The notes under the pieces were generated by a model. That model saw nothing but the letters and a program-made list of their open reading frames with translations. It was not told the origin of the DNA and did not search any database. A stretch of DNA of 42,775 bases from Patescibacteria group bacterium. Its GTDB lineage: Bacteria; Patescibacteriota; Minisyncoccia; RBG-13-40-8-A. The stretch spans positions 1-42,775 of the forward strand of contig JAKJED010000003.1 in assembly GCA_022705575.1 (NCBI GenBank), given 5' to 3'. Positions 13,827 to 16,675 of the stretch are shown here, piece after piece. The position numbers and the translations under genes were made by a program. How positions within the stretch are numbered: the first letter of the stretch is position 1; the number at the start of each line of letters is the position of its first letter.

Positions 13827-13910
13827 GCGGGCGTGGCGGAACTGGAAGACGCGCAGCGTTCAGGTCGCTGTAAGAGCAATCTTGTGGAGGTTCGACTCCT
13901 CTCGCCCGCA
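13827..13910 (+). tRNA. tRNA-Leu(CAG), CCA not encoded
   Basis: The acceptor stem GCGGGCG pairs with CGCCCGC and the discriminator is A. The anticodon stem CAGCG/CGCTG encloses TTCAGGT, giving CAG. A class II variable arm and T-arm (GGTTCGACTCC) follow. The bases after the discriminator are TTT, so CCA must be added by a nucleotidyltransferase, unlike the tRNA-Ser in this window. Confidence 0.95.
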
Positions 13911-13972: not shown

Positions 13973-14012
13973 AATATGCCCTGTAGCGAATTCCTTGCCA
14001 CTACGGAGCAAT
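13973..14012 (+). repeat. 5' leader hairpin, copy 1
   Basis: A 10-bp hairpin (TGCCCTGTAG / CTACGGAGCA with a C-A mismatch) has GAATTC in its loop. It lies just after a TATACT -10 box (13964-13969) and ahead of the tRNA-binding gene. A second copy with compensating base changes stands before the mutase gene at 16637-16675 on the other strand. Confidence 0.65.
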
Positions 14013-14050
14013 AATATTAATTATAATTAATGAGAAATTTATTACAAAGT

Positions 14051-14398
14051 ATGAATAAAATAACTTTTGAAGATTTTCAAAAATTAGATATCAGAATTGC
14101 AACTATTTTGGAGGCAGAAATAATACCCGATACTGCTAAACTTTTAAAATTAAAAATAGATTTAGGCTATTTAAATATTTCTGGACAACCAGAGCTACGG
14201 ATTCTTGTTGCGGGGATCGGTACAACTTACAAACCAGAAGATTTAATTGGAAAACAAATTCCGATTTTGGCCAACCTCAAACCAAAAATTATTAAAGGCA
14301 TTGAAAGCAACGGAATGATACTTGCTGTAGATGTGGAAAACAAAGCCATATTAATGTATCCGGATAAATCGGTTCCTAGTGGCGCAAAAATTCGTTGA
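14051..14398 (+). CDS. tRNA-binding (OB-fold) domain protein, CsaA/MetG-C-like
   Basis: The protein is a stand-alone tRNA-binding domain (PF01588), the fold found in CsaA and at the C-terminus of methionyl-tRNA synthetase. ITFEDFQKLDIRIATILEAE and the motif ILANLKPKIIKGIESNGMILAVDV are characteristic. It probably dimerises and binds tRNA or RNA. The upstream ATG at 14030 is in frame, but the one at 14051 gives a protein that starts like its relatives (MNKITFEDF). A perfect TATAAT at 14022-14027 would place transcription between the two starts. It precedes trpS on the same strand. Confidence 0.85.
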   Translation: MNKITFEDFQKLDIRIATILEAEIIPDTAKLLKLKIDLGYLNISGQPELRILVAGIGTTYKPEDLIGKQIPILANLKPKIIKGIESNGMILAVDVENKAILMYPDKSVPSGAKIR

Positions 14399-14434
14399 AT
14401 TAGTAATTAGTGATTAATAATTAATAATTATACT

Positions 14435-15427
14435 ATGCGCATTTTAAGCGGAATACAACCAACAGGAACATTGCATATTGGAAACTATTTAGGAGCAATC
14501 AAGCAATGGGTGGAATTACAAAACTCCAAAAATTTTGATGAAAAAACAGGATGTATTTTTATTGTTGTTGACTTGCATTCTTTAACTGTTGATTATGACC
14601 CAAAGCAAATGCAAAAAATGATTTTAGATGTCGCAATGGATTATTTGGCAGCAGGAATTGATCCGAAAAAAAATACAATTTTTGTACAATCGCACGTCAA
14701 AGAGCATGCTGAACTTTCTTGGTTATTACAAACCATCACTCCTATGGGCGAATTAGAAAGAATGACACAATACAAAGACAAATCTAAACAAAACAAAGAA
14801 AATATTAATGCTGGACTTTTTGCTTATCCGGTTTTAATGGCAGCAGATATTTTACTTTATAAAACAACAATCGTGCCGGTTGGAGATGACCAAGCCCAGC
14901 ACGTTGAATTAACTCGAGAAATCGCTAGAAAATTTAATAATAAATTTGGACAGACTTTTCCCGAACCAAAAACACAATTGCAAAAATCCGGCGCACGCAT
15001 AATGTCGCTTACTAACCCAATGCAAAAAATGAGCAAATCAATTCCGCAAGGATGTATTTTCTTAACTGATTCCGAGCAAACAATTAGAGAAAAAATAAAA
15101 ACCGCGGTCACTGACTCGGGTAAAGAAATTAAATTTAACGAAACAAATAAACCCGCAATTTCCAATCTTTTAACTATCTATCATCTATTTTCCGGAAAAT
15201 CCATTCCTGAAATTGAAAAAAATTATGAGAATAAAGGATACGGAGATTTTAAGACAGGATTAGCAGATGTTGTTGTTGACAACCTAAGAAAATTTCAAGA
15301 AAACCGCAAAAAATTTGAAAAAGACCCTGAACTAGTCAAGAAAATTCTCACTCAAGGCGCCAAAAAAGCCCAAAAAATTGCCGAAGAAACAATGGAAGAG
15401 GTCAAAAAGAAAATGGGATTAATTTAA
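14435..15427 (+). CDS. trpS: tryptophanyl-tRNA synthetase
   Basis: TrpS charges tRNA-Trp. The 330-residue class I enzyme has the HIGH-type motif GTLHIGNYLGAIKQW near the N-terminus, the tryptophan-pocket region VPVGDDQAQHVELTREIARKFN, and the KMSKS motif KMSKSIPQG. The C-terminal helical anticodon-binding part ends ETMEEVKKKMGLI. The length is typical. The 3' end overlaps the convergent mutase gene by 26 bases. It follows the tRNA-binding gene with a 36-base gap. Confidence 0.97.
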   Translation: MRILSGIQPTGTLHIGNYLGAIKQWVELQNSKNFDEKTGCIFIVVDLHSLTVDYDPKQMQKMILDVAMDYLAAGIDPKKNTIFVQSHVKEHAELSWLLQTITPMGELERMTQYKDKSKQNKENINAGLFAYPVLMAADILLYKTTIVPVGDDQAQHVELTREIARKFNNKFGQTFPEPKTQLQKSGARIMSLTNPMQKMSKSIPQGCIFLTDSEQTIREKIKTAVTDSGKEIKFNETNKPAISNLLTIYHLFSGKSIPEIEKNYENKGYGDFKTGLADVVVDNLRKFQENRKKFEKDPELVKKILTQGAKKAQKIAEETMEEVKKKMGLI

Positions 15428-16595
15428 TTAACTTTTCTTTTTGTTCCTCTAATAATTCTTTTGTATTTGCTTCAATAGTTAAACGCATAAGAGGTTCAGT
15501 ATTGGAAGCGCGTAGATTAAACCGCCAATCTTTTGCCTCAACGGTTATGCCGTCAAGAAATGATATCTTGGCGGATTTTTTGTATTCTTTTTTAATGTTT
15601 TTAAACTGCGATTTAAATTTTTCCGTATCAACAATTTCAAATTCAATTCTTTCTAAATAATATTTATTAAATTCATTAACCAAATCCGCAAGAGATTTTT
15701 TTGTTTCCTGCATAATCTCAATAATTCTCATTAAAACCAACAACGGCGCTTCCATATATTCTGTTTCTTTAAAATAATAATGGCCCGATGCTTCGCATCC
15801 GAAAACAATTTGCTTTTTTGCCATTATTTCTTTTATAAACGAATGCCCGATTCTAGATAATATTATTTTATTTCCATTTTTTATTGCCTCTTCTTTTACA
15901 ATTCTGCTGTTGGCGGGAGTATAAAGAATTTTTCCCGCATTTTTAAAGCAATAATGAATTAAAATCGCTGAAATCAAATCAGGATCAATTTTTCTGTTAT
16001 TTTCGTCAGTAAAAAATATTCTGTCCTTATCATTATCAAACTCAATATTAAAATTGAATTTTGAAGTAAAATCCGATAAATCCGATGGTTGCAAATTTCC
16101 TTGTCCTAATTTTAGAATTGAATTAATGTAATTTCTTAAAATTTCTTTTGTTTCTGTTCTTCCCTTATTATTGCTATTGGTAGTAATATTTTTACTAATA
16201 TTTTTTTTTATTTTTTCCAATCCTTTTGTACCAATCGGCATTGCATTTTCTTTTACAATTTTAAAACCATTATAATTTTCCGAATTATGTGAAGCAGTCA
16301 CCATAATTCCTCCGTTAACTTTAAATTCTTTTACTGCATAATAAAAAACCGGCGTTGCAGACAATCCAATATTTATAATATCAACGCCAAAATCAGTTAT
16401 TCCTTTTATAATCGCTTCTAATAATTTTTCCGAAGACGACCGATCGTCTCTTGCTATAACCAATTTTTTGTTTGCTGATTGCGCTAAAATTTTAGCGCTT
16501 GCTTTGCCCAATTTATACGCCAGTTCTTCATTAATTTCTTCGGGATAAATCCCTCTTATATCATACGCCTTAAAAATTTTATCTAATTCGTCCAT
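15402..16595 (-). CDS. phosphomannomutase/phosphoglucomutase with a shortened domain 2
   Basis: The protein belongs to the alpha-D-phosphohexomutase family, which interconverts hexose 1- and 6-phosphates. It has KAYDIRGIYPEEINEE, the phosphoserine loop TASHNSENYNGFK, the metal loop DNDKDR (usual form DGDxDR, all three aspartates kept), FGCEASGHYYF in domain 3 and the phosphate-binding RASNTEPLMR in domain 4. Between the helix ILRNYINSILKLG and DNDKDR only about 30 residues remain where relatives have some 85, so most of domain 2 is missing. I choose the ATG at 16595 (MDELDKIFKAYDIRG). The ATG at 16619 adds eight residues not typical of the family. Confidence 0.88.
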   Translation of the reverse strand: MDELDKIFKAYDIRGIYPEEINEELAYKLGKASAKILAQSANKKLVIARDDRSSSEKLLEAIIKGITDFGVDIINIGLSATPVFYYAVKEFKVNGGIMVTASHNSENYNGFKIVKENAMPIGTKGLEKIKKNISKNITTNSNNKGRTETKEILRNYINSILKLGQGNLQPSDLSDFTSKFNFNIEFDNDKDRIFFTDENNRKIDPDLISAILIHYCFKNAGKILYTPANSRIVKEEAIKNGNKIILSRIGHSFIKEIMAKKQIVFGCEASGHYYFKETEYMEAPLLVLMRIIEIMQETKKSLADLVNEFNKYYLERIEFEIVDTEKFKSQFKNIKKEYKKSAKISFLDGITVEAKDWRFNLRASNTEPLMRLTIEANTKELLEEQKEKLIKLIPFSF

Positions 16596-16636
16596 ATCCC
16601 GTAGTAGATTCTTAACCATTATCTAATTATTTTGTT

Positions 16637-16675
16637 GCTCCGCAGCAGTTGAGAATTCACTACGGGGCATACAAT
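16637..16675 (-). repeat. 5' leader hairpin, copy 2
   Basis: On the minus strand TGCCCCGTAG pairs with CTGCGGAGCA, with the same C-A mismatch and the same GAATTC in the loop as the copy at 13973. The 5' arm CCCGTAGT can also pair with ACTACGGG, which ends just before the ATG chosen for the mutase. Confidence 0.65.

Follow-up and report, generated by a model that had tools for sequence, protein, structure and literature searches.

Two similar hairpins, each lying just downstream of a promoter-like motif and upstream of a gene, raise the question of what kind of genetic unit they belong to. The window, i.e., the entire stretch of 42,775 nucleotides analyzed here, comes from a contig of a Patescibacteria group bacterium, and the first-pass annotation regarded the two structures as covarying leader hairpins with a GAATTC loop, the second of which might work as a switch. 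Both hairpins are present at the positions proposed, just 3' of -10-like boxes, and share the layout TGCCC(T/C)GTAG-(C/T)GAATTC as well as an identical C-A mismatch. The 17-base motif occurs twice in the window against 0.18 occurrences expected, and the individual hairpins are only modestly more stable than shuffled sequences (z about -2.2 each). The pairing proposed between the 5' arm of the second hairpin and ACTACGGG at the start of the mutase gene was reproduced with -23.8 kcal/mol, and none of 200 shuffles was as stable.

The hairpins are real but cover only the left two-thirds or so of a larger unit, as each is part of an insertion of ~71 bp flanked by duplicated TATG (Table 1). From 5' to 3', the unit comprises a left arm (A), an inner strand (B), an AT-rich spacer, and a right arm (C) that ends one base before ATG; the hairpin originally described at the csaA-like gene corresponds to A plus B. 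GAATTC is present as described but belongs to an inverted-repeat arm rather than forming a dedicated loop. The two ends of the GTAGT-type elements differ from each other (GA versus AG), leaving a recurrent mismatch in the folded stem. Both window genes begin at the second TATG, so that their start codons are shifted by the element, and the ATG of the first TATG at the csaA-like gene opens an upstream reading frame of 12 codons. The window copies are eroded, with B retained and C decaying, and the csaA copy is among the most eroded (A:C -6.3 and A:B -12.4 kcal/mol). Directly upstream of the csaA-like gene, a tRNA-Leu (CAG) was found at positions 13827-13910 in locus L001 and by ARAGORN; this tRNA is missing from the output of the whole-window Rfam scan.

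Table 1. Features of the two element copies and the adjacent genes (positions in the window; energies are for predicted duplexes).
Feature	Position	Strand	Basis or remark
TATG, 5' copy of target-site duplication, csaA-like gene	13975..13978	+	Element absent and ATG single in relatives G001, G002, G004, and G006
Miniature element copy 1, csaA-like gene, arm C eroded	13979..14049	+	Covariance-model match, 88.9 bits
Left arm A of copy 1, CCCTGTAGCGAATTCCT	13979..13995	+	Alignments
Inner strand B of copy 1, pairs with A	14000..14011	+	Fold; A:B duplex -12.4 kcal/mol
Eroded right arm C of copy 1	14033..14049	+	A:C only -6.3 kcal/mol
TATG, 3' copy of duplication, copy 1	14050..14053	+	True start codon 14051-14053
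CsaA-like tRNA-binding protein gene	14051..14398	+	Pfam tRNA_bind
TATG, 5' copy of target-site duplication, copy 2	16668..16671	-	Element absent and TATG single in relatives G001, G003, and G004
Miniature element copy 2, phosphomannomutase	16597..16667	-	Covariance-model match, 92.6 bits
Inner strand B of copy 2	16638..16649	-	Fold; A:B -15.5 kcal/mol
Right arm C of copy 2, AAGAATCTACTACGGGA	16597..16613	-	A:C -16.4 kcal/mol
TATG, 3' copy of duplication, copy 2	16593..16596	-	True start codon at 16595, not 16619
Phosphomannomutase/phosphoglucomutase gene	15402..16595	-	Pfam PGM_PMM I, III, and IV

The covariance model built from eight copies in the genome to which the window belongs yielded exactly eight strong matches in its 656 kb (E <= 1.3e-11; the next match had 0.4). 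The genes 3' of these copies encode proteins with the Pfam families tRNA_bind (csaA-like), phosphomannomutase, Mg-chelatase/ComM-type, NlpC/P60, SecA, signal peptidase S26, class II aminoacyl-tRNA synthetase (read as AspS), and DNA polymerase III delta'. As had been remarked for the two window genes, the downstream genes differ in role, and no common pathway is apparent among the eight. ATG follows arm C immediately in seven of the eight copies, and the right end is missing in the holB-like copy. Among the same eight copies, the 'compensating changes' attributed to the 5' hairpin turned out to be one-sided (e.g., G-C to G-U), with no double change. The covariation sits instead in the A:C helix, where we counted 10 cells with double changes against 5.3 in shuffled alignments, or 39 against 13.6 after adding 11 copies from a second genome. 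Since matching ends are expected in a transposon, this covariation alone is no proof of RNA function.

A pattern blind to both flanks and interior matched 49 of the 383 genomes of the class, and its reversed control matched none. The elements are 62-87 bp in size, encode no protein, and have the ends CCNNGTAGTGAA/TTCTACTACNNGG. A scan of 84,980 species recovered 77 loci, 62 of which are titled Patescibacteria or a Parcubacteria-type group and the remaining 15 only 'bacterium' or 'uncultured bacterium' (both counted by eye). The strict pattern had no match in viral contigs. Rfam gave no credible match over the elements at either gathering or permissive thresholds; weak matches to Phe/Leu leaders on L009 were far under the cut-offs.

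After four 85-nt tandem artefacts were dropped, identical 4-mers abutted both ends in 98 of 146 copies, compared with a mean of 10.1 and a maximum of 19 in 1000 flank shuffles; the exact repeat was missing in the other 48. With the TATG/CATA copies set aside, 66 of 104 copies still carried identical flanking 4-mers (5.6 in shuffles). The duplicated 4-mers include TATG, TTGA, CTTG, TTTG, TTTA, TCAA, and CATA, and conform to YNNR in 97/101 cases in one set and 32/34 in another. Copies were also found nested in one another, each with its own 4-bp duplications (L195, L196, L059, L133, L192, and L209), and several of the nested insertions lie within the B hairpin of another copy.

Empty sites were identified in relatives. 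At pmm, the window reads TATAAT, TATG, element, and TATG, and G001, G003, and G004 have a similar -10 box and one TATG. At csaA, the window has TATACT-AAAAA-TATG followed by the element, G002 has TATAAT-AAAAA-TATG without it, and G001, G004, and G006 have a single ATG after a -10-like box. For lysS, the element is present in G065 and absent from G159 and G272 of the same genus. As the relatives share the promoters and a single (T/C)ATG without any element, we regard the window elements as insertions into start codons. With a few bases between the -10 box and the ATG, the interrupted genes appear leaderless, as judged from sequence. The exact 4-bp flanking repeats of many different sequences identify the element as a miniature inverted-repeat transposon (MITE); it is short and codes for no protein, has inverted-repeat ends and target-site duplications, is present or absent among relatives, and shares its ends with a longer coding element (see below).

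How often such insertions fall on start codons was assessed in 212 distinct copies, counted after removal of overlapping or tandem matches and of repeats of one copy. A copy was counted as a start copy when an ATG at +0 or +1 relative to one of its ends opened a reading frame of at least 50 codons; 48 copies qualified (36 in one element orientation and 12 in the other) and 164 did not, the latter including L080 (clipped), L187, and L199, which look like start-codon insertions. Start codons account for 2.4% of YNNR sites, a background estimated from this one window only. Some loci were retrieved by covariance models that include TATG and B, which biases the sample. The blind-pattern loci included 24 start copies out of 183 and the named-genome scan 5 out of 64 (P 0.018); since the copies within one genome are related, this and the other p-values given here are too small. 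The MITE shows strong enrichment at TATG start codons where the promoter puts the ATG at or near the transcript 5' end. The association with promoters noted in the first-pass annotation holds for part of the family: a -10-like box with the expected spacing is present for 27/47 start copies but for 10/163 others. The same annotation named copies outside leaders as evidence against its reading, and such copies exist in the 164 scored off start codons, along with the 4-bp target-site duplications flanking copies. Altogether, this is a transposable element of which one subclass is associated with leaders, and not primarily a regulatory RNA.

What sets this subclass apart is B, which is specific to start-codon copies. 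On the gene strand, these copies and few others contain a B that can pair with A, whichever way the element is oriented. The A:B duplex has a median of -16.05 kcal/mol in the 48 start copies against -5.78 with a shuffled interior, whereas the 164 other copies show no excess (-6.65 against -6.34). B is carried by 46 of the 48 start copies and absent from two, and, among the blind-pattern loci, A:B falls below -8 kcal/mol in 22/24 start copies versus 55/159 others. Judging from the promoters, transcripts would begin at the first TATG. In the predicted folding of the nascent leader, before C is made, A is mostly paired through A:B in 51 of 54 cases; in the full leader, the longer A:C stem pairs at least two bases of AUG in 50 of 54. 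The proposed switch thereby stands in its anatomy, namely one 5' arm with two competing partners, one of them beside the start codon, but this arrangement is confined to start-codon copies. The start-hidden state is favored over the start-free state by a median of 21 kcal/mol at equilibrium, so repression of the gene is expected unless translation or kinetics intervene. The succession of A:B and A:C, and its effect on translation, are predictions of the folding model, under which B may protect the expression of the invaded gene. In the genome of the window, whose copies look older, A:C has decayed relative to G003 (median -14.6 versus -23.1, p 0.018; eight and eleven copies) and A:B has no measurable decay in the same comparison (-15.4 versus -16.1, p 0.20), which fits the retention of B rather than C by the host.

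A candidate parent emerged from a search for paired ends within 5 kb in loci L001-L324, in which the longest element with a duplication was 295 bp and pointed to a GIY-YIG gene. This copy (L066, in G003) has the same ends as the MITE and a TATG duplication, and encodes a GIY-YIG nuclease whose Pfam match exceeds the curated cut-off (E 6e-19). The L066 protein matches 314 of the 383 genomes, although the family is so common that its presence alone means little. We looked at 70 GIY-YIG loci, of which 8 without a motif anchor were dropped, and used 64 anchors in the remaining 62. Twenty-one anchors had 20-bp ends matching at 16 or more of 20 positions together with an exact 4-bp duplication. As a control, 52 shifted windows were put through the same test: one picked up a real element again, and the remaining 51 all fell short of the threshold. 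The 43 anchors failing the test imply that many family members reside outside such elements or that the elements are too eroded. The GIY-YIG elements are 279-351 bp in length, 16/21 have a TATG duplication, and in 14/21 a same-strand host ORF of at least 50 codons starts at the duplicated ATG; the proteins encoded by these ORFs include a Cpn10, a protein with a PHP domain, and an HrcA-like protein slightly below its Pfam cut-off. At hrcA, the element is present in G003 and the site is empty in G002. The ends of the MITE and the GIY-YIG element are identical at 20/20 positions in G003, G195, and G213.

Most of the ~300-bp unit is taken up by the GIY-YIG reading frame, and no DDE, Y1, serine, or tyrosine transposase was recognized between the ends. 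Residues including Y4, Y15, R25, H29, and E61 are invariant in all 12 proteins compared. In 7 of the 21 elements, the duplicated ATG and the nuclease gene share one reading frame; in most of the others, the nuclease starts internally, at about +22 to +32. At least four end families were distinguished by eye; those other than the MITE type (ATACAACTTCCAG, GACAAAATCGAA, and CCCGTTARAGAC types) were seen in L368, L369, L382, L388, L383, L390, L359, and L398, suggesting several lineages of GIY-YIG elements. In the hrcA leader of G001 (L405), the start codon is preceded by a different inverted-repeat-like structure ending in ACTGGGTATG, which may have arisen by separate insertion of a member of another end family. 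No autonomous copy with the MITE ends was found in the genome of the window, where L401 and L402 were examined out of three GIY-YIG matches. We also considered that B was inherited from the left end of the GIY-YIG elements; it was not seen in the first 34 nt of their interior. We regard as the most likely parent of the MITE an element of ~300 bp that has the same ends and, between them, a GIY-YIG nuclease as its only encoded protein; this nuclease would mobilize both the parent and the MITE.

The most cautious statement supported by the data is that the window contains two eroded MITE insertions at start codons, belonging to a family that shares its ends with GIY-YIG-encoding elements. We further consider it highly probable that the two features are old Parcubacteria MITE insertions at YNNR sites with a likely GIY-YIG parent and with B as a proposed decoy. 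The MITE inserts at 4-bp YNNR sites and duplicates them; at TATG, one start codon would come to lie at the mRNA 5' end and a second lies before the gene, leaving the protein unchanged. Landing on a start codon would put the nuclease frame of the parent behind a host promoter and let the host gene keep its ATG. Even after loss of the nuclease frame, the ends of the MITE would form a long A:C stem covering the true start codon. We propose B as a decoy: by pairing first with A, it would sequester the spurious upstream ATG and leave the true start accessible, at least on the nascent mRNA.

A more ambitious proposal, to which we give an even chance, is that Parcubacteria harbor a new class of DNA transposons of ~300 bp, in which the sole GIY-YIG protein is the transposase, leaderless start codons are the targets, the host promoter and sometimes the start codon are hijacked, the duplication supplies the new host start, and the MITEs evolved an RNA decoy keeping the invaded gene translatable. 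If so, a gene family common in the Candidate Phyla Radiation (matches in 314/383 genomes; protein of ~90 residues) includes very small transposons, and insertion at the start sites of essential genes is tolerated through target duplication, possibly combined with an RNA decoy.

Another transposase acting in trans might instead have made the ends and duplications, with the GIY-YIG gene as passenger cargo. GIY-YIG nucleases are not known as transposases, and, of the two GIY-YIG copies examined in the genome of the window (G000), which keeps MITEs, neither has these ends; both points agree with a transposase in trans. Nevertheless, we judge it unlikely, as the same kind of nuclease, with no further gene, lies between ends of at least four families (by eye), the GIY-YIG ends match those of the MITE in three genomes, and no other long element with paired ends and a duplication was found within 5 kb in loci L001-L324. 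The unit might also be a cis-acting RNA switch dedicated to the control of a regulon, either a riboswitch or a translational attenuator, the TATG repeats being parts of stems rather than duplications. The predicted exclusive pairing of A with B or C, one state of which hides AUG, the A:C covariation, and the presence of B on the gene strand in both orientations are what a switch would show. We consider this improbable given the copies scored off start codons (164/212), the flanking repeats of many sequences, the empty sites in relatives, the absence of a pathway common to the downstream genes, and the absence of any curated Rfam family match at gathering score over the elements; arm covariation is in addition expected of transposon ends. 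Single copies may have been domesticated as switches.

The GTAG motif prompted a comparison with REP-type hairpins moved by RAYT (Y1) transposases. Y1_Tnp genes do occur in 12 of 19 genomes, with three matches in G000, but they also occur in genomes without a covariance-model match; moreover, Y1 transposition is not known to make target-site duplications, and the exact 4-bp duplications observed here speak against REP/RAYT membership, which was rejected as very improbable. Also very improbable is a conserved leader peptide (M-P-R-S-E-F...) as the functional unit. NTG is indeed present in the 5' duplication of 44/48 start copies, but frames and lengths vary, with nine scored as overlapping the gene and L169 and L198 reading through in frame, and the peptide changes track the stem changes, so a conserved leader peptide was rejected.

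In the literature covered, mostly open-access titles, the portions available describe neither start-codon MITEs nor a transposon that encodes a GIY-YIG nuclease and has inverted repeats and duplications, and those of PMC12641178 and PMC12455944 contain nothing bearing on these elements. According to the part of the source available, the accessory genes of casposons include a GIY-YIG nuclease (PMC4046053). The nearest solved chains to the element nuclease are UPF0213 proteins. The nuclease resembles GIY-YIG endonucleases (UPF0213/T5orf172-like and free-standing homing enzymes) in its Pfam GIY-YIG domain and conserved catalytic-type residues, but, unlike homing GIY-YIG endonucleases, lies inside inverted repeats and 4-bp duplications at unrelated genes, with no single homing site. 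Insertions in CPR rRNA genes likewise carry small GIY-YIG genes and match neither group I nor group II introns (PMC11270868); unlike the present elements, they are at rRNA sites, and the sections of that paper available mention no inverted repeats or duplications.

Bacterial MITEs such as Correia/NEMIS, ERIC, and RUP are described, in the available part of the source, as shorter than 200 bp and non-coding, with inverted-repeat ends, target-site duplications, and a stable stem-loop in transcripts (PMC2229807), and in these respects the present MITE is similar. It differs from them in its 4-bp YNNR duplications instead of TA-type ends, the enrichment at start codons, the putative decoy strand in start-codon copies, and the likely GIY-YIG parent. 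IStrons, as far as the accessible text describes them, are mobile elements that limit the harm to the host gene through RNA (PMC4227781), as is proposed here; in contrast to IStrons, which are spliced out, the present element duplicates the start codon, which would make splicing unneeded.
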